A stretch of 64,000 nucleotides of DNA, taken from assembly GCA_026395405.1 (NCBI GenBank), contig JAPLYU010000003.1:62001-126000 (forward strand), given 5' to 3'. This document shows, in pieces, positions 3,183-38,938 of the stretch. Below the pieces are notes generated by a model, which ran no database searches, had not been told where the DNA came from, and saw only the letters and a program-made list of their open reading frames with translations. The translations under genes were made by a program, and so were the position numbers. This DNA is from Candidatus Saccharimonadota bacterium (GTDB lineage Bacteria; Patescibacteriota; Saccharimonadia; Saccharimonadales; Saccharimonadaceae). Numbering within the stretch: position 1 is the first letter of the stretch; every line of letters starts with the position of its first letter.

Positions 3183-5855
3183 ATGGCTAAATTAAAACGT
3201 ATCTGGCTTTTCCGCGAAGGTAATGCAACAATGCGCGACGAACTTGGTGGCAAAGGCGCCAACTTGGCAGAAATGACCGTTATCGGTCTGCCCGTCCCAG
3301 CCGGTTTCACGATTACAACGATGACTTGTAACGAATATACGGAACTTGGCGGACAATTGCCTAGTGGATTCATGAGCGAAGTGAAAACAGCCCTGGCCGA
3401 CGTCGAAAAAGACATGGGCAAAAAACTTGGCGATCCGACTGACCCACTACTGCTTTCGGTCCGTTCCGGTTCAAAATTCTCGATGCCAGGCATGATGGAT
3501 ACTGTTTTAAATCTTGGTTTGAACGACGTAACGGTCAAAGCCTTAATCAAAGAGACCGGCAACGCTCGTTTCGTTTACGACTCATACCGACGGTTCCTTA
3601 TGATGCTTTGCGATGTCGCTTTTTCAAAACCAGATAACAAACTGGCTAAACACGATTTCGAAGTTATTTTCAGCGAACTTAAAAAGAAACTTGGCGTTAA
3701 AATTGACACCGACGTTGATGCCGAAGGACTAAAAGAATTAGTCGACCTATATAAAGTACATATTAAAAAAGAACTCGGCCGTGACTTCCCACAGGACGTT
3801 TTCGAACAACTGCAAATTTCTATCGAAGCCGTTTTCCGTTCATGGAACAACGACCGCGCCAAAATTTACCGCAAACGCGAAAAAATCTCTGACAGCCTAG
3901 GTACCGCCGTTAATATCCAAGCAATGGTCTTTGGGAACATGGGTGATGATTGCGGAACGGGCGTTGCCTTTACTCGCGACCCTGCCGCTGGTCACAACGT
4001 AGTTTTCGGTGAATATTTGATGAATGCCCAAGGCGAAGACGTGGTCGCCGGCGTTCGCACACCAACGCCAATCGATAAACTAAAAACCCAAAATCCTGCA
4101 ATTTTCAAAGAATTCATCGATATTTGTGAAAAACTTGAAAATCACTTCCGCGACACCCAGGACATCGAATTTACCATCGAACACGGTGTTCTTTACATTT
4201 TGCAGACCCGAACCGCTAAACGATCCGGCCCAGCCGCTGTTAAAATCGCTGTCGACATGGCGCACGAAGGTCTAATCGACCAAAACACTGCCCTAGCCCG
4301 CATCAGCCCTGAACAACTTGACCAGTGTCTGCACGCAATTATTGCACCGGGCACAAAATATACAGTCCTAGCCAAAGGTTTGCCAGCCGGCCCAGGCGCA
4401 GCTACCGGAATCGCCGTCTTTGACGCCCACCGTGCAGCCGAACTTGGAAAAGGCGGCAAAGGACAAAAAGTCCTATTGGTCCGCGCCGACACCAGCCCAG
4501 ATGATTTAAAGGGTATCTTGGCATCGGAAGGCGTTTTGACCGAACGTGGAGGAATGACTTCTCACGCTGCCTTAGTCGCTCGTGGCTTTGGTATCCCTAC
4601 TGTTGCCGGTTGCTCATCTATACGCGTTGATGCTAAAGCTCGCCAGTTCACAATTGGCGGCAAAACTATCAAAGAAGGCGAATTTATCTCGATTAACGGC
4701 ACCCTGGGTGAAGTTATCGAAGGTAAAGTCGCAGTCGTTGACCCAGAAATGACCGGTGAATTCGGCGAATTAATGCACTGGGCCGACGAAACCCGCCGCC
4801 TGAATATCCGAACCAACGCCGACACGCCCGAGGATGTTGCTTTGGCTGTCAAATTTGGCGCCGAAGGTATTGGCCTTTGTCGCACCGAACACATGTTTTT
4901 TGCCAGTGACCGCCGCCCAATCGTTCAGGCCATGATTATGTCCGAAACAGATGACGAGCGCCAAGTTCAGTTAGACAAACTGCTGGCTTTCCAACGCAAA
5001 GACTTTGTCGAAATCTTCAAAGCTCTTGAGGGCCGCCCAGCTACAATCCGCCTGATTGATCCCCCACTTCACGAATTCTTGCCAAACCTGGAAGATTTGA
5101 TTGAAGAAGTAGCAACCCTACGCGCCAAAGGCAAAACTGACATCAAAAAGGAAGAAATGCTGGCAAAAGTCAAATCAATGCACGAAGTAAACCCGATGAT
5201 GGGTCTGCGTGGTTGCCGACTTTCAATCGTCTTCCCACAAATCGTTGAAATGCAAACCCGTGCCATTATCGAAGGCGCAATTGCATCCAAAAAAGCCGGT
5301 GTTACTGCTTTGCCAGAGATAATGATTCCTCTGGTTGGACACGTCAACGAATTTAAGTGGCTTCGCGAAAAACTAGAAAAAACAGCCCGCGAATTAGTCA
5401 AAAAATCAGGTCAAGACATCGATTACAAGATTGGTACAATGATCGAGATTCCACGCGCCGCCCTAACTGCCGATAAAATTGCCGAACATGCCGAATTCTT
5501 CAGCTTTGGCACTAACGACCTGACACAAATGACATTTGGTTATTCCCGCGACGATTCAGACCGCTTCTTGAACACCTATATCGAAGAGAAGATTCTGCCG
5601 GGTGATCCGTTTGAATCAATCGACCAAGAAGGTGTCGGCCAACTGATTGAAATTGCCGTTGAAAAAGGCCGCTCGGTCCGACCAAAACTAAAGGTTGGTA
5701 TCTGTGGCGAACATGGTGGCGAACCTGCCTCAATTGCATATTGCCATAGAATCGGCCTTGATTACGTCAGTTGTAGCCCTTACCGCGTCCCAATTGCACG
5801 ACTAGCCGCCGCTCAGGCTAACCTACCGGATACCTCTGCTTCCAAGGATAAATAG
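3183..5855 (+). CDS. ppdK: Pyruvate, phosphate dikinase
   Basis: PPDK interconverts pyruvate, ATP and phosphate with PEP, AMP and diphosphate in the cytoplasm, linking glycolysis and gluconeogenesis. The 890 aa length is typical. Order of domains: N-terminal nucleotide-binding domain (to about residue 340), phosphohistidine domain with GGMTSHAALVARG (His461), and the C-terminal PEP/pyruvate barrel with GLCRTEHMFF and GICGEHGGEP (Cys841, the catalytic cysteine position). The start is fixed by a strong Shine-Dalgarno AAGGAGGTG at 3167-3174. It is a single-gene unit between the rpsT terminator and the first GC-rich cassette. In a small genome it may run in the ATP-yielding direction. Confidence 0.96.
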   Translation: MAKLKRIWLFREGNATMRDELGGKGANLAEMTVIGLPVPAGFTITTMTCNEYTELGGQLPSGFMSEVKTALADVEKDMGKKLGDPTDPLLLSVRSGSKFSMPGMMDTVLNLGLNDVTVKALIKETGNARFVYDSYRRFLMMLCDVAFSKPDNKLAKHDFEVIFSELKKKLGVKIDTDVDAEGLKELVDLYKVHIKKELGRDFPQDVFEQLQISIEAVFRSWNNDRAKIYRKREKISDSLGTAVNIQAMVFGNMGDDCGTGVAFTRDPAAGHNVVFGEYLMNAQGEDVVAGVRTPTPIDKLKTQNPAIFKEFIDICEKLENHFRDTQDIEFTIEHGVLYILQTRTAKRSGPAAVKIAVDMAHEGLIDQNTALARISPEQLDQCLHAIIAPGTKYTVLAKGLPAGPGAATGIAVFDAHRAAELGKGGKGQKVLLVRADTSPDDLKGILASEGVLTERGGMTSHAALVARGFGIPTVAGCSSIRVDAKARQFTIGGKTIKEGEFISINGTLGEVIEGKVAVVDPEMTGEFGELMHWADETRRLNIRTNADTPEDVALAVKFGAEGIGLCRTEHMFFASDRRPIVQAMIMSETDDERQVQLDKLLAFQRKDFVEIFKALEGRPATIRLIDPPLHEFLPNLEDLIEEVATLRAKGKTDIKKEEMLAKVKSMHEVNPMMGLRGCRLSIVFPQIVEMQTRAIIEGAIASKKAGVTALPEIMIPLVGHVNEFKWLREKLEKTARELVKKSGQDIDYKIGTMIEIPRAALTADKIAEHAEFFSFGTNDLTQMTFGYSRDDSDRFLNTYIEEKILPGDPFESIDQEGVGQLIEIAVEKGRSVRPKLKVGICGEHGGEPASIAYCHRIGLDYVSCSPYRVPIARLAAAQANLPDTSASKDK

Positions 5856-5890
5856 CACGCCCACTCCAGGGGTCAAACAATCAAATACTA

Positions 5891-5919
5891 TTGACTTTTT
5901 TAAGCAAAAGTAGTATAAT
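5891..5919 (+). promoter_or_regulatory. Strong sigma-70 promoter of membrane-protein cassette 1
   Basis: TTGACT (5891-5896), a 17-nt spacer and a perfect TATAAT (5914-5919). Transcription should begin near 5926, giving a leader of about 130 nt, unlike the near-leaderless genes that dominate the window. Confidence 0.8.
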
Positions 5920-5929
5920 GTGCTCAACT

Positions 5930-6058
5930 TAGTGAATTTCTCACTTGGTGGTATGTTTAACAATAAATCGAATCATTTTAGTTCACTTGCGTCCGATTCA
6001 TTGGGCCCTGTTAACTAAACCCTTAAAACTCTTTCCCCCGAAAGAAAGGTCTGGCGAC
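5930..6058 (+). promoter_or_regulatory. Conserved 5' leader, copy 1
   Basis: This untranslated stretch matches the leader of cassette 2 (6898-7036) over most of its length. Shared blocks include TGTTTAACAA, CATTTTAGTTCACTT, CGTCCGATTCATTGGGCCCT, AAACCCTT and CCCCGAAAG just before the start codon. The copies differ by small indels. Conservation between two otherwise different operons points to a regulatory RNA or a shared recombination arm. Confidence 0.7.
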
Positions 6059-6379
6059 ATGTACATCAAGGTGAGTTCGTTGGTTCGGATTCTGCTGGTT
6101 GTGGTGGTATTTGCATTCATTCTGGCGGCGATGCTTTTCACCGTCGGCGGACTGCTTTCCGCACACCACAGCATCATGTCCGATCGCTTCATCTACGCAG
6201 GCGTAGCAGTGGGCGTCATCATGATCATCGCCATCGTCGACGTCTTGGCAATCTGGGCAGTCCAGGTATCCAAGTACGTCGTCATCATCAGCTACGTGAT
6301 CTACGTCTGGCTGCTGATGACCATCTTCGGCAACAAGGCTCTCAAGAAGAAGCATCCGAACGTCCAGCACGCTCAGTAA
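6059..6379 (+). CDS. Small hydrophobic protein, GC-rich cassette 1 gene 1 (unknown)
   Basis: 106 aa, not recognised. Three hydrophobic stretches (about residues 8-33, 44-68 and 72-90) suggest an integral membrane protein with a short basic C-terminus (KALKKKHP). An upstream GTG at 5945 would extend it, but that region is the conserved leader, and the ATG at 6059 follows GAAAGG, so the ATG is preferred. Codons end mostly in C or G (ATC, GTC, CTG), unlike purF or ppdK next door, which suggests a different origin. It is followed 21 nt later by a second small membrane gene. Confidence 0.7.
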   Translation: MYIKVSSLVRILLVVVVFAFILAAMLFTVGGLLSAHHSIMSDRFIYAGVAVGVIMIIAIVDVLAIWAVQVSKYVVIISYVIYVWLLMTIFGNKALKKKHPNVQHAQ

Positions 6380-6400
6380 CAGCACGAACAAGGAGATAAG

Positions 6401-6634
6401 ATGAAGCACATCATCAGCCTGGTCGCATTTCTGGCCATCGCAGCGGCATTCCTCACATTCGGGATGGTCTTCATCCCAGCGCGCGCCGTCGACCATCACT
6501 TCGGCAATGGTGTCCAGATTCTTGCCATACTGGCAGTCTGGTGCATCATGCTCACGATTGTGGTCGTCATCGCGGCTCGTGGACACCATGTTCCTCGCCC
6601 CAAGCGGCGGTGGTACTTCGGGAAGATGCACTGA
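6401..6634 (+). CDS. Small two-TM protein, GC-rich cassette 1 gene 2 (unknown)
   Basis: 77 aa with hydrophobic segments near residues 3-27 and 38-58, and a basic tail (PRPKRRW). A good ribosome-binding site (AAGGAG) sits just before the ATG. No family recognised. It ends cassette 1 and is followed by a large hairpin at 6661-6713. Its segment FIPARAVDHHF faintly resembles DHFVPAHVE in the last gene of cassette 2, which may reflect distant common ancestry. Confidence 0.68.
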   Translation: MKHIISLVAFLAIAAAFLTFGMVFIPARAVDHHFGNGVQILAILAVWCIMLTIVVVIAARGHHVPRPKRRWYFGKMH

Positions 6635-6660
6635 CCATGAAGGTCATTGCGGAAGGGTTT

Positions 6661-6713
6661 CCGTAGGAGGAGGCTCGGCACGCGTGCAAACGCTGCCGAC
6701 GCCCCTCCTACGG
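6661..6713 (+). terminator. 3' hairpin of cassette 1
   Basis: CCGTAGGAGG at the left arm pairs with CCTCCTACGG at the right, with inner pairing CGGCA/TGCCG. The stretch GAAGGGTTTCCGTAGGAG just before and within it recurs at the end of cassette 2. There is no clean T-run immediately after the stem, so it may be a processing or stability hairpin instead of a classical terminator. Confidence 0.65.
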
Positions 6714-6762
6714 AGGAACAATTTTACTGATAAAAGCGAATTATAATGAATCGATTTAAATC

Positions 6763-6859
6763 TGTGGATAAAAAGGATAAAAAGGACGGACCTTTTTCCC
6801 CGCCTGTCTGAATACAGTTCGGGCAGAACACCTTAGGGTGATGACTAACTTACAACAAT
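6763..6859 (-). repeat. Interspersed repeat copy A (long form)
   Basis: In the orientation of copies B and C this reads TTGTTGTA, CATCACCCTAAGGTGT, the central insert CCCGAACTGTATTCAG, GGCGGGG, AAAAAGGTCCGTCCTTTTT and ATCCAC. It lies between the two membrane-protein cassettes. It carries one extra AAAAAGGAT unit relative to the other copies. The AAAAAGG/CCTTTTT arms form a small stem. Confidence 0.8.
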
Positions 6860-6863
6860 TATA

Positions 6864-6892
6864 TTGACAAATTCTCTAATAAATAGTAAAAT
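6864..6892 (+). promoter_or_regulatory. Strong sigma-70 promoter of membrane-protein cassette 2
   Basis: Perfect TTGACA (6864-6869), 17-nt spacer, TAAAAT (6887-6892). It begins directly at the edge of repeat copy A and drives the second leader and five small genes. Confidence 0.8.
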
Positions 6893-6897
6893 ATTAG

Positions 6898-7036
6898 TCA
6901 ACTTTGGTGGTTTCCACCTGGGTGGCACTGTTTAACAAATCAACTCATTTTAGTTCACTTAGCGCGTCCGATTCATTGGGCCCTCTGTGAACGAAACCCT
7001 TCAAAAGTTTCACCAACCCCCCGAAAGGACTGTCGC
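6898..7036 (+). promoter_or_regulatory. Conserved 5' leader, copy 2
   Basis: Second copy of the leader seen at 5930-6058. In this copy GTTCAC and GTGAAC can pair around the CGTCCGATTCATTGGGCCCT block, which suggests a folded element. It ends with CCCCCCGAAAGGA, providing the ribosome-binding site of the first gene. Confidence 0.7.
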
Positions 7037-7387
7037 ATGCCGTTTCGCAAGTCAGTCAAACCTCTGTTTCTGGTGTCTTTGTTCACGTTCCTCGTGGCGG
7101 CTGCCGCATTCGAGCTGTATCTGATCTCCAACCTGATGGGTTGGTGGTACGTGCAGTCCGACCTGTGGAGCGTCATAAGTATTACGGCGGCTGTCTTGAC
7201 GGTCGTCGCTATCCCCTACGCCGCAGCGCTTTGGTTGTACGGACACTTGGCCCACGGGGCCTCGTATCTGAAGACCCAAGCAATACGGCAACGTGAACAA
7301 CAGATCATTGCCGCAAAGGTCGCCAAGAACTACGTTCAACAGCACTTGCCCAACAAAAACGGAAAAGGAGATTCCAATGCGTTATGA
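7037..7387 (+). CDS. Small membrane protein, GC-rich cassette 2 gene 1 (unknown)
   Basis: 116 aa. Hydrophobic segments near residues 9-33 and 42-70, then a charged, probably helical tail rich in Gln, Arg and Lys. It occupies the same position after the leader as the 106-aa protein of cassette 1, but the sequences are not clearly similar. Codon choice is C/G-ending, unlike the host genes. It overlaps the next gene by 11 nt, so translation is likely coupled. Confidence 0.68.
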   Translation: MPFRKSVKPLFLVSLFTFLVAAAAFELYLISNLMGWWYVQSDLWSVISITAAVLTVVAIPYAAALWLYGHLAHGASYLKTQAIRQREQQIIAAKVAKNYVQQHLPNKNGKGDSNAL

Positions 7388-7535
7388 GTACCTTATCATC
7401 ATCCCGACAGTCGCCGCTGTGGTCGCAGTCATCGGTGCAGGACTCATCGTCCGCAGGACCGTGATTCAGTTCGCGGTCGGTTTCCACCAGATCCATGAGG
7501 AACTCGGACTGGGAGAATCAGGATGGACCAAGTAG
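7377..7535 (+). CDS. 53-aa single-TM protein, cassette 2 gene 2 (unknown)
   Basis: Starts at the ATG at 7377 inside the end of the previous gene, with GGAAAAGGAG as its ribosome-binding site. One hydrophobic helix (about residues 5-26) is followed by a short acidic tail (HEELGLGES). No family recognised. The overlap and Shine-Dalgarno support a real gene in spite of its size. Confidence 0.6.
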   Translation: MRYEYLIIIPTVAAVVAVIGAGLIVRRTVIQFAVGFHQIHEELGLGESGWTK

Positions 7536-7547
7536 ACAGGAGGTCTT

Positions 7548-7793
7548 GTGATCTTCCCGAGGATTCGTGACATGGCTCTTCCAAGAAGCAAGCATCCGAC
7601 CGCACTGTTGTGCGGCATCGTTGCTCTTGGCATCTGCCTGTTCATCTTGGCCAAGATGCCAGAGGCGCACATGTACGGCGTAATACCGTACCTGTCGAAG
7701 TTCATCAAGGTGATGTGGCTGCTTGCAGCCATCTTCAGCTTCTGCTTTGGCTACGGTATCGGCAACATGTTCGACAGGAAGGCGTCCAGATGA
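7548..7793 (+). CDS. 81-aa two-TM protein, cassette 2 gene 3 (unknown)
   Basis: The GTG at 7548 lies 4 nt after AGGAGG. A later ATG at 7572 is possible but less well placed. Two hydrophobic segments (about residues 19-35 and 52-72) flank a short loop. The C-terminus NMFDRKASR is basic. Stop and next start overlap as ATGA. Function unknown. Confidence 0.6.
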   Translation: MIFPRIRDMALPRSKHPTALLCGIVALGICLFILAKMPEAHMYGVIPYLSKFIKVMWLLAAIFSFCFGYGIGNMFDRKASR

Positions 7794-7930
7794 ACGATGA
7801 GGACAGTCGTCCTATGCTGTATCTTGTCGTTTTCGCAATCTTCATCGGTTGCGCCGCGGCACAGTCCGCGTACGACAACACGGTCATCTGGCTCAAGTCC
7901 GTTGGACGGCGGCTCAAGTACGGAGGTTGA
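7790..7930 (+). CDS. 46-aa single-TM protein, cassette 2 gene 4 (unknown)
   Basis: Begins with ATG overlapping the preceding stop codon (ATGA), typical of translational coupling. One hydrophobic helix near residues 9-25 and a basic C-terminus (GRRLKYGG). Not recognised. The call rests on the operon spacing and C/G-ending codon use shared with its neighbours. Confidence 0.5.
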   Translation: MNDEDSRPMLYLVVFAIFIGCAAAQSAYDNTVIWLKSVGRRLKYGG

Positions 7931-7937
7931 AATTCAG

Positions 7938-8225
7938 ATGCGAAAGCATGTCAAAGACGACAAGTTCATGATCTTGGGCGGCTTGATCTGCGCGATCATC
8001 GCCCTCTTCGTGGTTGACCACTTCGTTCCGGCGCACGTGGAGACCACGGGCAGCAGAATCGTCATGGTCGTAACTCTGTTCATCAGCCTGCCCGTCGGAG
8101 CTGCCATCGGTGGCTCCATCGGCTGGGTGATTGACCGTGCGCGTGCGCATTGGGCCCTCTTGGACTACCTGGACGCTTCGTCCAAGGCCTACCTTGAGGT
8201 CGTTCGGTCACCGAGCGAGGAGTAG
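7938..8225 (+). CDS. 95-aa two-TM protein, cassette 2 gene 5 (unknown)
   Basis: Start ATG at 7938, 11 nt after GGAGG. Two membrane segments (about residues 10-28 and 40-65), the second with a small-residue motif GAAIGGSIGW, then an acidic or polar tail. It ends cassette 2 and is followed by the 3' hairpin shared with cassette 1. No family assigned. Confidence 0.63.
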   Translation: MRKHVKDDKFMILGGLICAIIALFVVDHFVPAHVETTGSRIVMVVTLFISLPVGAAIGGSIGWVIDRARAHWALLDYLDASSKAYLEVVRSPSEE

Positions 8226-8250
8226 CCCGCATGGGTGTTGAAGGGTTTCC

Positions 8251-8306
8251 GTAGGAGTGGGCCGCAGGTGCGTGCACATCTGCACGGGGCCGGCGGCCCC
8301 TCCTAC
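8251..8306 (+). terminator. 3' hairpin of cassette 2
   Basis: GTAGGAG plus GGGCCGC pair with GCGGCCC plus CTCCTAC, with one bulged T. GTGCA/TGCAC pair inside. The flank GAAGGGTTTCCGTAGGAG matches cassette 1 exactly, and AGCGAATTATAATGA follows both hairpins (6735-6749 and 8319-8333). Confidence 0.68.
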
Positions 8307-8350
8307 TAACAACAAGATAGCGAATTATAATGATTTGATTTAATAAAAAA

Positions 8351-9778
8351 CTAGCTCAAAAATGACGAACTTTTTCGGTCCTTGCCGTCTATTATAGGGT
8401 AATTTACCTCTTTGCGGCGCTGTTTAATATCAATCGGATATTTGCCATTAAAACACGACGTCGAAAACATCGATTCTTTCAAACCTGTCGCGTTAATCAT
8501 GCCTTTAAACGAAATATAGTTCAGACTAGTCGAGCCCAAATACTTATTTATCTCGGCGATAGACCTGTTAGCGGCAATCAATTCTGCTTGTTTTGGCAAA
8601 TCAATTCCGTAAAAATCCGGAAATTTAACGGGCGGCGAACTGACCAAAAAATGCACTTCGCGGGCTCCGGCTTCGAATAACATCTTTACAATCTGCCGGG
8701 AAGTCGTCCCGCGCACTATCGAATCGTCAACTACCACGACCCGCTTACCTTTGATGATACCTTTTAACGGCGCCAGTTTCAGTTTTACACCTTGTTCGCG
8801 AATGTGTTGTTCGGGCTCGATGAATGTCCTGTGTATGTACCTACTTTTTATAATTCCGGTTTCATAAGGGATTCCGCTGGCAGTTGCATACCCTATCGCA
8901 ACCGGTATAGCACTTTCCGGGACTGGTACAACAATATCCGCATCGATTTTGTATTCACGCGCTAGTTCAATTCCGAAATTTTTCCTGACTTCATACACCG
9001 ATTTCCCCAGTAATTGACTGTCCGGTCGCGAAAAATAGACAAATTCGAAGATATCTAGTTTTTGAATGCTTTTTACGATTTGCTTGCGATGTAACCCGGT
9101 TTCGTCAACAACGACCATCTCGCCAGGATGAACATCGCCGATATGTTTGGCGCCGATTGGGTGAAAAGCGCAAGTTTCGGATGCAAAGACGTATCCGCCG
9201 TTTAATTTAGCAATTGAAAGAGGGCGGATACCGTATTGGTCGCGAATAGCAATCAGCTTGTTTTTGCTCATTATTAGGATAGAAAATGCGCCGGTCATCA
9301 GCGGGAAAACTTTTTCGACGGCTTTTTCCAAATCCATACCGTCACTAGTCAGGCTGTAAATCGCCTCTGTTATCAGCGTTGAATCTGATGTTTCGGATGT
9401 TTTAATACCTTTTTTCTTCAAAAAATCGGTCAGTTGCGTGGTTGTTGGTAAATTGCCATTGTGGACCAGTACAATTGAGCCGTCGGGAACTTCAATTGGA
9501 TGAGCGTGTATTAAATCAGTACCTGACGAGGTCGAATAGCGGTTGTGACCAACGGCGGCATGCCCCGGCAGGCTTTTGATGACATCTTCAGTAAATACTT
9601 GGGAAACTAGGCCGTTATTTTTGTAACAAAATATTTCATTGCCGTCGGTCGATGCGATGCCAGAGCTTTCCTGACCCCTGTGCTGTAGTGCATATAGCCC
9701 GAAAAAGGTCAGTCGACTGACGTCTAAGCCCTTGCCGTATATACCGAATACGGCACACTTCTCCCCAATGTTTTTCAC
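8351..9778 (-). CDS. purF: Amidophosphoribosyltransferase
   Basis: Catalyses the first committed step of purine synthesis: PRPP plus glutamine gives 5-phosphoribosylamine. A short propeptide precedes CAVFGIYG, whose Cys8 is the N-terminal nucleophile after processing. The glutaminase domain spans roughly residues 8-240. The phosphoribosyl domain has the PRPP loop VVVVDDSIVRGTTS. In Bacillus-type enzymes cysteines bind a [4Fe-4S] cluster; here one position before the FSRPDS motif is Asp and the C-terminal pair has only one Cys (STSCFNGKYP), so a cluster is unlikely. The start is GTG, 7 nt after TATAAT, so probably leaderless. No other pur gene is present in the window. Confidence 0.93.
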   Translation of the reverse strand: MKNIGEKCAVFGIYGKGLDVSRLTFFGLYALQHRGQESSGIASTDGNEIFCYKNNGLVSQVFTEDVIKSLPGHAAVGHNRYSTSSGTDLIHAHPIEVPDGSIVLVHNGNLPTTTQLTDFLKKKGIKTSETSDSTLITEAIYSLTSDGMDLEKAVEKVFPLMTGAFSILIMSKNKLIAIRDQYGIRPLSIAKLNGGYVFASETCAFHPIGAKHIGDVHPGEMVVVDETGLHRKQIVKSIQKLDIFEFVYFSRPDSQLLGKSVYEVRKNFGIELAREYKIDADIVVPVPESAIPVAIGYATASGIPYETGIIKSRYIHRTFIEPEQHIREQGVKLKLAPLKGIIKGKRVVVVDDSIVRGTTSRQIVKMLFEAGAREVHFLVSSPPVKFPDFYGIDLPKQAELIAANRSIAEINKYLGSTSLNYISFKGMINATGLKESMFSTSCFNGKYPIDIKQRRKEVNYPIIDGKDRKSSSFLS

Positions 9779-10806: not shown

Positions 10807-10917
10807 TCAATTTCACATCCTTCCCTTGCGGGCTAGGGTTAGCACCTTGCGTTTCACGTAGGTTGCTGGCAGGTCAAAAAGCTAGGACTCTCGCTGCACT
10901 CTTGATATTAAATTGTT
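10807..10917 (-). promoter_or_regulatory. SAM riboswitch (S-box/SAM-I clan) upstream of metK
   Basis: The minus strand contains ATATCAAGAGTG, then GAGAGTCCTAGC, CCAGCAACCT, AAGGTGCTAA and CCTAGC in the order of the S-box aptamer core, followed by a CCC-GCAA-GGG hairpin corresponding to P4. CAATTT and AAATTG can close the basal stem. The location directly upstream of metK fits feedback repression by SAM. Exact subclass (SAM-I or a SAM-I/IV variant) cannot be settled by eye. Confidence 0.82.
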
Positions 10918-18717: not shown

Positions 18718-18747
18718 TTCATCTGTTATTATAATATAATACCCATA

Positions 18748-18772
18748 GATATGCAAACGCCCCATTTCGGGG
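18748..18772 (-). repeat. Direct repeat of tandem zinc-ribbon cassettes, copy 1
   Basis: ATATGCAAACGCCCCATTTC plus GGGG, the start of the 3' hairpin of the first unit. The same text recurs at about 19415 and, slightly changed, at about 20073, so the two gene units are bounded by three direct repeats. Confidence 0.75.
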
Positions 18773-18805
18773 AGACAATAGTTCGTCTGCATCCCGTAAT
18801 GGGGC
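18759..18805 (-). terminator. 3' hairpin of the zinc-ribbon gene at 18816
   Basis: GCCCCATT-TCGGG pairs with CCCG-AATGGGGC, and AGAC/GTCT pair inside the loop. It lies just after the stop codon on the minus strand. Nearly the same hairpin ends the next unit at 19426-19472. Confidence 0.75.
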
Positions 18806-18815
18806 TTGGTGTTGG

Positions 18816-19325
18816 TCAGCTGGTCTCATGGATCGTGACCGTGGTCTTGACGACCTTGACGATGACTGGCATCGCACCCTCTTGTTGGAGTTCATCCACC
18901 CTATGTACGATGTGCTCTCTATCGCCCAAACGAAGGGGGCCGTATATGGAGTCAAGCCTGTAGGCAGGCATCGACTCTCCTGGGGCCGACGGAATTGTCG
19001 TCATGACTGCCAGTGACCCTGTACGAGCTTCGAACAGATGGTTCCACATGACCCTCTTGGTCGTTTCGGTGAACTCGGATTCGTAGTCATCTGGCTCGAC
19101 GAGCCCGACAACTACCTGATAGGTGCGCATACACTTGGGGCACTCCAGATTGAGCTTGCCTTCAAGTGCTCCTTCGCTGATCTGGATGAGGTGCTTCATC
19201 CCGAGTTCACCCTCGGAAGACATGGGCTTTGACCCAAACGTCTTCTCGGACCCGCACGTGCAAATGGCTGTGACGACGTAATCACTAGTCTTCTCAGCAA
19301 CTGGTGTCACTTTGAAGAACTTCAT
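18816..19325 (-). CDS. Zinc-ribbon protein of tandem GC-rich cassette, paralogue 1 (unknown)
   Basis: 169 aa from ATG 19325, which follows AAAGGGG by 8 nt. A GTG just upstream lies too close to that site. CTCGSEKTFG and LECPKCMRTYQVVV supply a CxC and a CxxC pair that could bind zinc (about residues 22-75). The C-terminal half shares phrases with the neighbour at 19482: EGALEGKLNL against EGTLEGDLDL, and GSLAVMTTIPSAP against GTLAIMTAVPIAP. Codons are strongly C/G-ending compared with HAD and mutM next door. No known family recognised. Confidence 0.7.
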   Translation of the reverse strand: MKFFKVTPVAEKTSDYVVTAICTCGSEKTFGSKPMSSEGELGMKHLIQISEGALEGKLNLECPKCMRTYQVVVGLVEPDDYESEFTETTKRVMWNHLFEARTGSLAVMTTIPSAPGESMPAYRLDSIYGPLRLGDREHIVHRVDELQQEGAMPVIVKVVKTTVTIHETS

Positions 19326-19371
19326 AAAGCTCACCCCTTTGGGTTGTTATTCACAAAGACCAATCGTAGAT

Positions 19372-19400
19372 ATTATACAATTTTTTTCAAATAATTTCAA
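19372..19400 (-). promoter_or_regulatory. Promoter of zinc-ribbon unit 1
   Basis: Minus-strand TTGAAA (19395-19400), 17 nt, TATAAT (19372-19377). The leader that follows contains GATTGGTCTTTGTG and AAAGGGGTGAG before the start codon. The same promoter and leader stand before unit 2. Confidence 0.8.
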
Positions 19401-19414
19401 TATATTTATCTCAA

Positions 19415-19438
19415 GATATGCAAACGCCCCATTTCGGG
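19415..19438 (-). repeat. Direct repeat of tandem zinc-ribbon cassettes, copy 2
   Basis: ATATGCAAACGCCCCATTTC plus GGGG, identical to copy 1. It joins the promoter end of unit 1 to the 3' hairpin of unit 2. Confidence 0.78.
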
Positions 19439-19472
19439 GAGACAATGGTTTGTCTGCATCCCGTAATGGGGC
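19426..19472 (-). terminator. 3' hairpin of the zinc-ribbon gene at 19482
   Basis: Same fold as at 18759-18805: GCCCCATT-TCGGG with CCCG-AATGGGGC. Only a few loop bases differ. Confidence 0.75.
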
Positions 19473-19481
19473 TGGTGTTGG

Positions 19482-19985
19482 TCAGTCGCTGAGGTCCAGA
19501 ACGACTTTGTGGTCGATGATTCTGACTGCGACTGGCCTTTCGCCACAGTTGAGTAGCGACTTGAGACTACTACCCATGACGGCGGCGGCGGATGAGTCTC
19601 TGTCGGGAAAAGTCATGGCGATCCGATAGAGAGCACCTGACTCCTTTGGTGCGATTGGCACGGCCGTCATAATAGCCAGCGTACCTTCCACCCCCTCGTG
19701 AGTGATGGACTCGAAGACGTACTCGGTCGTGTCAGTGACATCGTAGCCGTAGACGGCTTCGTCGTCACTGACGTGGACGTGGTAGGTCCGACCACAGTTG
19801 AGACACCCCAGGTCCAGATCCCCCTCGAGCGTGCCCTCGTTAATCTTGAGGACGTGCACCTTCAGGATGCTCTCGGCCGGCAGATCGACGTTCGGGTTGT
19901 TCATACTGCGATTCCCACACTCGCAGACCAGACTGACGAAATACTCTTCCGGACATCCGGGATTACCATGAATCTTGGATTGCAT
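19482..19985 (-). CDS. Zinc-ribbon protein of tandem GC-rich cassette, paralogue 2 (unknown)
   Basis: 167 aa. CECGNRSM and LGCLNCGRTYHVHV give a CxC plus CxxC zinc-ribbon pattern as in the paralogue. The C-terminal part contains GTLAIMTAVPIAPKESG. ATG 19985 follows AAAGGGGTGAG closely. Coding sequences of the two paralogues have diverged well beyond their flanking promoter, leader and hairpin, which are nearly identical. Codon use is C/G-ending. Function unknown; a nucleic-acid or protein adaptor role is only a guess from the ribbon. Confidence 0.7.
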   Translation of the reverse strand: MQSKIHGNPGCPEEYFVSLVCECGNRSMNNPNVDLPAESILKVHVLKINEGTLEGDLDLGCLNCGRTYHVHVSDDEAVYGYDVTDTTEYVFESITHEGVEGTLAIMTAVPIAPKESGALYRIAMTFPDRDSSAAAVMGSSLKSLLNCGERPVAVRIIDHKVVLDLSD

Positions 19986-20027
19986 AACTCACCCCTTTGG
20001 TTAGGTATCCACAAAGACCAATCACGA
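19986..20027 (-). promoter_or_regulatory. Leader of zinc-ribbon unit 2 with TTGGT/ACCAA stem before the ribosome-binding site
   Basis: Minus strand: TTGGT (20017-20021) can pair with ACCAA (19997-20001), which is directly followed by AGGGGTGAG, the Shine-Dalgarno of the gene. The same layout is found at 38861-38885. Confidence 0.6.
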
Positions 20028-20029
20028 AT

Positions 20030-20058
20030 ATTATACAATTTTATTCAAATAATTTCAA
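20030..20058 (-). promoter_or_regulatory. Promoter of zinc-ribbon unit 2
   Basis: Minus-strand TTGAAA (20053-20058), 17 nt, TATAAT (20030-20035). Matches the unit 1 promoter almost base for base. Confidence 0.8.
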
Positions 20059-38364: not shown

Positions 38365-38395
38365 GGGGGCGGATCGCAGATTGCGACCCGCCCCC
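38365..38395 (-). terminator. 3' hairpin of the GC-rich gene at 38415
   Basis: GGGGGCGG and TCGCA pair with TGCGA and CCGCCCCC around the loop GAT. A second small stem GGCGTG/CACGCC overlaps the stop codon. The design (long GC-rich terminal hairpin) matches the other GC-rich cassettes. Confidence 0.75.
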
Positions 38396-38414
38396 GGTGT
38401 CTACGCGGCGTGGG

Positions 38415-38753
38415 CTACACGCCCAGCATCTCTTCGGTCACGTGGACCGGGACCGGAATCTTGGAGAAGTGCTTGTTGTTGCCAGGCTTGCGTTCCCGAG
38501 CCTTGAAGCACGGCTTGTCCAGCCTTGGCGACTCAAGGACGACGATCTTCTCGTCCTTGTAGCGCTTCCCCAAGTAGGTGCAGACGTTGGTGTAGATGCG
38601 ACCGCATCCTCCCTTGCGGAAGAACGCGACGAACACCATCTTGGTACCGTTGTCCGCTACCAGATGGTTCACCATGACGTCGTCGGCTCCCATCTTGGTG
38701 ATGACTTCGATGGTCTCCTCGTCACTTAGAAGAACAGGATCCATAGCACTCAA
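38415..38753 (-). CDS. GC-rich cassette gene with Cys residues (unknown)
   Basis: 112 aa if it starts at TTG 38753, which is 6 nt after GAGGGG; an ATG three codons later is the alternative. Contains GGCGRIYTNVCTYLG and KPCFKARE. Codons are almost all C/G-ending, sharply different from msrA and the gene at 37489. It has its own strong promoter, a long leader and a terminal hairpin, like the cassettes at 6, 7, 19 and 63 kb. No known family recognised. Confidence 0.62.
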   Translation of the reverse strand: MSAMDPVLLSDEETIEVITKMGADDVMVNHLVADNGTKMVFVAFFRKGGCGRIYTNVCTYLGKRYKDEKIVVLESPRLDKPCFKARERKPGNNKHFSKIPVPVHVTEEMLGV

Positions 38754-38938
38754 GTCATTCCCCTCTCGATGAGATAGCTGGCACTTGGTACGTTGTTACC
38801 CTGGTTTTCCTGACACTTGCCTCTTCGCCACCGTCAAATTGACTCGAGACTTCGAAATTAATCACCCCCCTTGGTCGTTGACCAAATCAATTGACGGTTT
38901 ACGTAGATTAATTGTTATTATACAACTTTCTCTTGAAC
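38754..38938 (-). promoter_or_regulatory. Long leader of the 38.4-kb gene with TTGGTC/GACCAA stem
   Basis: On the minus strand TTGGTC-AAC-GACCAA (38871-38885) is followed at once by GGGGGGTGAT (38861-38870). This copies the TTGGT...ACCAA-GGGGTGAG leader of the zinc-ribbon cassettes. A strong Shine-Dalgarno here has no ATG after it, although a short frame ending KRQVSGKPG could start at a GTG or ATT. The second site GAGGGG serves the annotated gene. Confidence 0.6.

Follow-up and report, generated by a model that had tools for sequence, protein, structure and literature searches.

What kind of genetic unit keeps its untranslated ends matched while the small genes between them differ? The question is raised by two tandem groups of GC-rich genes in a 64,000-nt stretch (hereafter, the window) of a Candidatus Saccharimonadota bacterium, assembly GCA_026395405.1, contig JAPLYU010000003.1, positions 62,001–126,000 of the forward strand. 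The home genome (G000) is 855 kb in length with a G+C content of about 43%; genomes of the order span 0.4–1.6 Mb. Both groups, referred to as cassettes, are located on the plus strand between ppdK (3183–5855) and purF (8351–9778, minus strand): cassette 1 (W1, 5891–6797) contains two genes and cassette 2 (W2, 6864–8344) contains five. Our analysis indicates that these two focal cassettes probably belong to a class of heavily structured mRNAs with clamped ends, protected and post-transcriptionally controlled, which carry exchangeable, fast-evolving payload genes. For this architecture the sequence evidence is strong for the class and moderate for the two focal cassettes.

Untranslated frame and predicted pairing of transcript ends

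Each focal cassette has its own sigma70 promoter with 11 of 12 matches, TTGACT-17-TATAAT (5891–5919) in cassette 1 and TTGACA-17-TAAAAT (6864–6892) in cassette 2. A 5' hairpin, P1, follows (5926–5953, at the likely transcription start, and 6900–6929, respectively); its core AACU-[hairpin]-GGUGGUA is the same in W1, W2 and two cassettes, R1 and R2, of the related genome G017. Repeats D1 and D9 are common to both leaders, 21 nt being identical (5989–6009 and 6964–6984), and repeats D5 and D6 (23–25 nt, 91–92%) are common to both trailers. GC-rich trailer hairpins, P3, were recognized from inverted repeats and covariation at 6660–6714 and 8251–8306. The matching promoter-leader-hairpin frame of two adjacent operons, proposed in the first-pass annotation, was thus confirmed.

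The trailer end motif GCGAATTATAATGANTNGATTT had four matches in the window at no more than three mismatches, against 0.03 expected by chance. Two of these four are the leaders on the opposite strand, which makes the two ends of a cassette complementary. In the transcript, strand A of the leader is predicted to pair with strand A' of the trailer, and B with B', so that the genes are enclosed. In cassette 1, A (5964–5988) pairs with A' (6734–6758) according to the full-length fold and helix score, A' being also marked by motif matches and covariation, and B (AACCCTT, 6018–6024) pairs with B' (6653–6659) with a probability of 0.92 in the full-length fold. A leader hairpin, P2 (5978–6019), found in the RNAalifold consensus of four leaders, would be an alternative to a part of this A–A' helix. 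In cassette 2, the main helices between A (6931–6957) and A' (8319–8343; trailer repeat, motif matches and full-length fold) have probabilities of 0.92–0.95, and B (GAAACCCTTCAA, 6993–7004) forms a perfect 12-bp helix with B' (8238–8249) with a probability of 0.97. In both focal cassettes the pairing strands stop well upstream of the Shine–Dalgarno sequence, so that it is not covered in the manner of icaR mRNA; strand B could, as an alternative, pair with the Shine–Dalgarno sequence.

Full-length folds (842–1454 nt) of W1, W2, R1, R2 and cassette G of a third species (G024) contained 27–40 leader–trailer pairs in the minimum-energy structure. End closure was predicted for all five of these A-type transcripts from three species, with a mean pair probability of 0.83–0.96 (0.91 for cassette 1). 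Helices were compared by ungapped helix scores; duplex energies were dropped since GC hairpins dominated them. The A–A' helix of cassette 1 scored 35.5 versus a maximum of 29.5 for shuffled leaders, and among 17 cassettes the own leader–trailer helix outscored cross-family pairs (p 2.6e-11). Covariation of the A-type clamp comprised 6 double-change pairs, a result equaled by 5 of 500 shuffles; pair-keeping changes include A-U, G-U and G-C at one position and A-U and U-A at another.

A GC-rich inverted sequence, GCCTGTCTGAATACAGTTCGGGCAG..ACACCTTAGGGTGAT, is conserved between cassettes (window 6800–6850; locus L103, 8700–8770) and is possibly a common processing or terminator element.

Relatives of the focal cassettes in other species

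Genome G017 has both of its cassettes at the same ppdK–purF site, and G024 has its single cassette in the rpsT–metK interval. A scan of 84,980 genomes for the trailer-end pattern returned only the home genome, G017 and G024, and covariance models of leader and trailer, run on 393 genomes of the order, gave convincing matches only in the same three. Leader-model matches in loci L073–L076 represent a different conserved element and were dropped. Since G017 and G024 represent other species within the same genus, the frame is not a local recent duplication, the case named in the first-pass annotation as speaking against a new system.

Between G000 and G017, the untranslated regions (UTRs) are 73–87% identical over aligned bases (69–84% over the longer sequence), the single coding genes 46–61% over the longer sequence, and the neighboring ppdK and purF 82–84%. 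GC-rich codons were kept at the ppdK–purF site in both genomes, with proteins at about 30% identity and GC-poor neighboring genes, which favors selection and disfavors recent import.

Locus L034 (about 5640–5920, genome G016) is at best a possible cousin: it is flanked by inverted repeats, but its sequence is AT-rich and no trailer hairpin is present. This locus (5640–5920) encodes one small membrane protein, and its flanking inverted repeats share the AAATCAAATCATTTTA motif with strand A.

Wider class of GC-rich cassettes

A codon-usage scan covered the window and about 250 kb of sampled stretches of the home genome (about 310 kb together); cassette numbers per genome are accordingly minimum values. 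The scan revealed many more units of small GC-rich genes: at 18.7–20.0 kb and 38.4 kb of the window, at 11.3–14.5 kb of L102, at 0.1–2.4 kb and 8.8–10.1 kb of L103, and elsewhere. Units of L102 and L103 have the order promoter, hairpin, leader strand, GC-rich genes, GC-rich hairpin and complementary strand. The plan (promoter, 5' hairpin, leader strand, small GC-rich genes, hairpin, complementary trailer) recurs in many cassettes of the genome and across the order, in agreement with the suggestion of the first-pass annotation that a common untranslated frame marks an undescribed system. The 5' hairpin core AACU-[hairpin]-GGUSGUA is common to the focal leaders and to the sister leaders E, F and Gc, which ties the focal cassettes and the sister units into one class.

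One subfamily has a trailer strand complementary to the Shine–Dalgarno region itself: leader AATGTAAGGAGAAA with trailer TTTCTCCTTACATT and, in another unit, ATGTAAGGAGAGT with ACTCTCCTTACAT. The Shine–Dalgarno sequence is covered by pairing in sister cassettes E, F, Gc and H as well as in loci L147, L148 and L129.

Two tandem GC-rich Cys-pair cassettes are located at 18740–20030 (minus strand; proteins at 19985–19482 and 19325–18816), with their own promoters and conserved UTRs. Their proteins are tandem paralogues with G+C contents at third codon positions (GC3) of 0.67–0.70. The orthologue of the Cys-pair cassette in G017 (L082) has UTRs of 93–97% identity over aligned bases, while its protein has only 39%. 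A single-gene GC-rich cassette with a trailer hairpin was found at 38380–38930 (minus strand). An S-adenosylmethionine (SAM) riboswitch (RF00162) is located 5' of metK at 10812–10911 of the window (minus strand) and is present in G017 too.

Hammerhead ribozymes in related cassettes

Many sister units contain a type III hammerhead directly 3' of the complementary strand, for example at 1006–1054 of L103 (Rfam RF00008, E 1e-3). E values for RF00008 reach down to 2.8e-6, and all Rfam-scored copies are below the gathering score of 48.5 bits; standard annotation would therefore miss them. The sister hammerheads fit type III, with the core CUGANGA...GAAA, three stems and predicted cleavage triplets obeying the NUH rule. 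Ten aligned hammerheads were 98.8% paired with 11 double-change pairs, and none of 500 shuffles was as good. A search of the order with the core pattern gave 97 matches versus 3 in the reversed control, distributed over 55 of 393 genomes and 43 of 156 genera. Stem II was complementary in 30 of 31 inspected matches though the pattern did not require it, and most of them have a 7-bp stem I. The G+C content is 0.55 upstream of the hammerheads versus 0.47 downstream (p 5e-5).

The clamp recurs with these ribozymes. In distant genera, TGACAAGCAGACA pairs with TGTCTGCTTGTCA, with a TATAAT-type promoter upstream and genes between the strands. The TGACA-type clamp had 8 double-change pairs and was 97.9% paired, which was not reached in any of 500 shuffles. 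Neither the leader–trailer complementarity nor the hammerhead ends of relatives had been noticed in the first-pass annotation.

Hammerhead cassettes of L113, L117, L120, L139 and L144 have a tRNA gene at a distance of about 1 kb or less, and such genes may be favored for insertion. A GC-rich SLT transglycosylase is encoded immediately 5' of a hammerhead cassette array in L113 (1–400, G017). Three trailers (L102, 11780–11890; L103, 1715–1810 and 2270–2360) have a decorated hairpin, GGCGCGAG..GTTGATGTGCGAAAGCTTTCCAAC..CGCGCC, at the place of the hammerhead of other cassettes.

Payload genes, codon usage and folding

Cassette 1 encodes 1a (W1a, 6059–6379, 106 aa, three hydrophobic segments) and 1b (6401–6634, 77 aa, two hydrophobic segments). 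Cassette 2 encodes 2a (W2a, 7037–7387, 116 aa), 2b (7377–7535, 52 aa, an 11-nt overlap with 2a at 7377–7387), 2c (7548–7793, 81 aa, GTG start preceded by AGGAGG), 2d (7790–7930, 46 aa, ATGA junction with 2c, similar to R2b of G017) and 2e (W2e, 7938–8225, 95 aa, glycine-rich, two hydrophobic segments). The seven open reading frames (ORFs) of 46–116 aa, each with 1–3 hydrophobic segments, therefore agree with the earlier description of tightly coupled small membrane-protein genes with C/G-ending codons. Their GC3 is 0.65–0.80 versus about 0.33–0.49 in most ordinary genes of the window. AAG accounts for 86% of Lys codons versus 22% in the genome, GAG for 75% versus 23%, and ATC for 78% versus 24%.

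No focal product was above the curated cut-offs of Pfam or NCBIfam, matches to PHROGs were weak, and PADLOC gave no match above its cut-off, consistent with the earlier statement that no recognized family is represented. A holin identity for 1b was not supported (holin-X, PF07332, 19.2 bits versus a cut-off of 28.4; phrog_126, E 0.049). A match of a focal product to thylakoid ssl2009 was short or weak, below the curated cut-off, and was rejected.

The coding content had been described as non-homologous, and this part was not supported. The first genes form a family, W1a being similar to W2a (z 6.6 over shuffles), R1a (8.8) and Gb (7.3), and so do the last genes, W2e being similar to R2c (z 6.5) and Gc (8.2), with R1b also assigned. 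The other part, variable small genes in a common frame, holds. Judged from their sequences, the focal cassettes are old paralogues shaped by fast divergence and by gain and loss of tiny ORFs. Divergence of paralogues in place, which had been named as an alternative to a new system, thus accounts for the first and last genes and for much of the difference, and gain and loss of tiny ORFs adds to it.

The proteins are fast-evolving payloads. Those of the focal cassettes are small membrane proteins, while many cassettes of the class encode soluble ones, a point bearing on the co-regulated membrane complex suggested in the first-pass annotation. Among the sister payloads are orphans of the soluble type and a handful of recognizable domains (NUDIX, RNA polymerase alpha C-terminal domain (CTD), DUF4419 and transglycosylase). 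In other genera (L126, L136, L130, L132, L129, L142), payloads ahead of hammerheads include DUF4419, an RNA polymerase alpha-CTD protein and NUDIX. Two short orphan payloads at these loci, ubiquitin-like by eye, and a VWA-like protein had no Pfam match.

Folding of the coding RNA was compared with shuffles preserving the protein, codon counts and codon-boundary dinucleotides. Fifteen focal-type genes folded below their shuffles, with a mean z of −1.84 versus −0.14 for controls (p 1e-5). In other genomes, genes upstream of hammerheads had a mean z of −1.33 versus −0.46 downstream. High GC3 would come at least partly from selection for RNA folding rather than from recent gene import.

Proposed mechanism and alternative explanations

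Sequence comparison shows that members of the class have their own promoter, a 5' hairpin, complementary clamp strands, small GC-rich genes with codons unlike those of other genes in the genome, and a GC-rich trailer hairpin; many relatives have a hammerhead in addition, predicted to cleave the transcript immediately 3' of the clamp. The clamp, the 5' hairpin, the GC-rich hairpin and, where a ribozyme is present, the cyclic-phosphate end left by it may shield the message from exonucleases. Opening and closing of the clamp may tune translation, as its strands compete with local hairpins or cover the Shine–Dalgarno sequence; in the subfamily pairing with the latter, the trailer would silence the finished message. 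Altogether, this architecture suggests that these tiny bacteria build messages of uncommon stability, or ones that can be switched, around genes that change quickly.

Several observations weigh against this interpretation. A hammerhead was not found in the focal cassettes by Rfam search of window positions 5000–9500 and 6600–6900, and the Rfam matches obtained in the focal region were rejected as chance microRNA and long non-coding RNA matches to GC hairpins. Instead of a hammerhead, the ends of the focal pair are intrinsic-terminator-like or AT-rich; cassette 1 ends in the terminator-like inverted repeat AAAAAGGACGGACCTTTTT (6779–6797). The A-type clamp keeps conserved mismatches (A.C at one pair), and its covariation, taken alone, is therefore only moderate evidence. 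The leader–trailer gain of cassette G in a two-fragment fold was no better than in shuffles; nonetheless, its clamp was recovered in the full-length fold and in the 17-cassette helix comparison. As a caution for the covariation of the clamp variants, three distant helices had been picked as the best trailer complement, and two of these, L120 and L138, do not beat shuffles alone. The Cys-pair cassettes show little leader–trailer pairing. The difference between sense and antisense folding was the same as in control genes (p 0.59). The folding excess is not strand-specific; it supports a structure-related constraint without proving action on mRNA, and the structure may have a DNA-level cause.

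The best surviving alternative, still an unlikely one, is that these are ordinary operons for abundant small membrane proteins, in which pairing of the ends is incidental or a minor stability feature. Strong promoters, C-ending codons, good Shine–Dalgarno sequences and tight coupling are all expected of such operons. At the same time, the preference for AAG, GAG and CAG is odd for a genome of about 43% G+C and is absent from ppdK and metK of the same window, the proteins diverge too fast for abundant structural proteins, and compensatory changes in the clamp, together with the order-wide recurrence with hammerheads, are not accounted for.

Slightly less likely are remnants of GC-rich prophage gene blocks. 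Hammerheads flank prophage gene blocks (PMC3088659), phage contigs carry the hammerhead core, a GC-rich transglycosylase adjoins one array of G017, and 1b has its weak holin-X match. Most payloads, however, have no PHROGs match, single cassettes are situated between housekeeping genes in conserved order, and the hammerheads of viral contigs show little GC contrast and mostly lack a clamp.

We regard as improbable a mobile or recombining DNA cassette with leader and trailer as terminal inverted repeats serving payload exchange. Leader and trailer are indeed inverted repeats in DNA, payloads vary, the G024 copy lies elsewhere (rpsT–metK) and the folding excess is not sense-specific. However, the two ends carry unlike hairpins, the differences between the arms include compensatory changes, and the ppdK–purF site was kept in two species; in relatives, the inverted part covers the Shine–Dalgarno sequence and abuts a ribozyme, which is sensible for RNA rather than DNA. 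Neither a target duplication nor a recombinase was seen beside the cassettes in a search that was not systematic. DNA-encoded viroid-like RNAs, that is, ribozyme-cut, end-paired, rod-like messages ligated to circles, would agree with type III hammerheads, units of about 0.6–1.5 kb, closed ends and overfolded coding RNA, but are very improbable, as every unit is provided with a promoter and carries no more than one ribozyme (none in the focal pair), and RtcB ligase was not found in 30 relatives by a search that was positive in 9 of 14 control genomes.

End-clamped, structured mRNAs are thus preferred by us for the focal cassettes. An extension of this interpretation, which we consider speculative and rather doubtful, is a chassis for latent, armored messages, GC-rich and overfolded, with ends locked by the 5' hairpin, the clamp and a ribozyme-made 3' end; these would be stored or transported translationally silent and opened at another time or place, e.g., after attachment to a host cell. 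If it were true, the variable proteins would be effectors of host-cell interaction.

Comparison with known systems

Pairing between 5' and 3' UTRs is known in bacteria from a few single mRNAs, and bacterial hammerheads are known mainly from prophages, their purpose being unsettled. The class described here joins both features in many copies, in about one-seventh of the genomes sampled from this order of ultrasmall bacteria, mostly with orphan payloads. With it, hammerheads would gain a definite function at the 3' ends of mRNAs, and a further, new level of gene control would come to light in bacteria for which very few regulators are known. A set of fast-evolving genes would also stand out as candidates for interactions with hosts or rivals.

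In hok mRNA of type I toxin–antitoxin systems, which encodes a small membrane protein, the stable, inactive full-length message has its 3' end folded back onto its 5' end. The cassettes resemble it in the small membrane proteins and in the predicted folding of the 3' end onto the 5' end, but their payloads are polycistronic, most sister cassettes encode soluble proteins, and no antisense RNA was identified; antisense promoter matches at the focal cassettes were weak and at chance level. Integron gene cassettes also place exchangeable payloads in a constant frame, with a promoterless gene, an attC site and an integrase, whereas each unit here has its own promoter of 11/12 matches, plus terminators. 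No attC-like or integrase evidence was seen at the cassettes, no separate search having been made for either.

mRNAs regulated like icaR of Staphylococcus aureus are marked by pairing over the Shine–Dalgarno sequence, RNase III cleavage and translational repression. The icaR mRNA, with pairing of its 5' and 3' UTRs, has been reported as a unique case, confined to a single gene (PMC3868564). In the class studied here a trailer strand is likewise complementary to the leader of its own mRNA, and in one subfamily covers the Shine–Dalgarno sequence; in contrast to icaR, this is a whole class with leaders in common, payloads rich in GC and, in many members, a ribozyme at the end, and the focal clamp lies upstream of the Shine–Dalgarno sequence. 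Hammerheads downstream of small prophage gene blocks have been proposed to trim mRNAs of operon length (Perreault et al. 2011, PMC3088659). The position of the ribozyme 3' of a small gene block is similar, but the units described here are chromosomal and GC-contrasted, a leader-complementary strand precedes the ribozyme, and the focal cassettes have no ribozyme. Obelisks and viroid-like RNAs are about 1 kb, highly base-paired and protein-coding, some with type III hammerheads (PMC11922315, PMC13096302); unlike these RNA elements, which are covalently closed circles and have no DNA copy, the cassettes are chromosomal in three species and have promoters, and no circular form is known. An Oblin family was not seen among the products, no test aimed at it having been made.

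No open-access paper names both the hammerhead and Saccharibacteria or Patescibacteria; subscription journals and preprints were outside the scope of this search, and priority is uncertain accordingly. The sole open-access paper combining the hammerhead with the candidate phyla radiation concerns RNA polymerase domains. The single components of the chassis are already known, and icaR, hok and the prophage hammerheads each share one part of it; none has the whole architecture, and it is for this reason that we call the chassis as a whole new.

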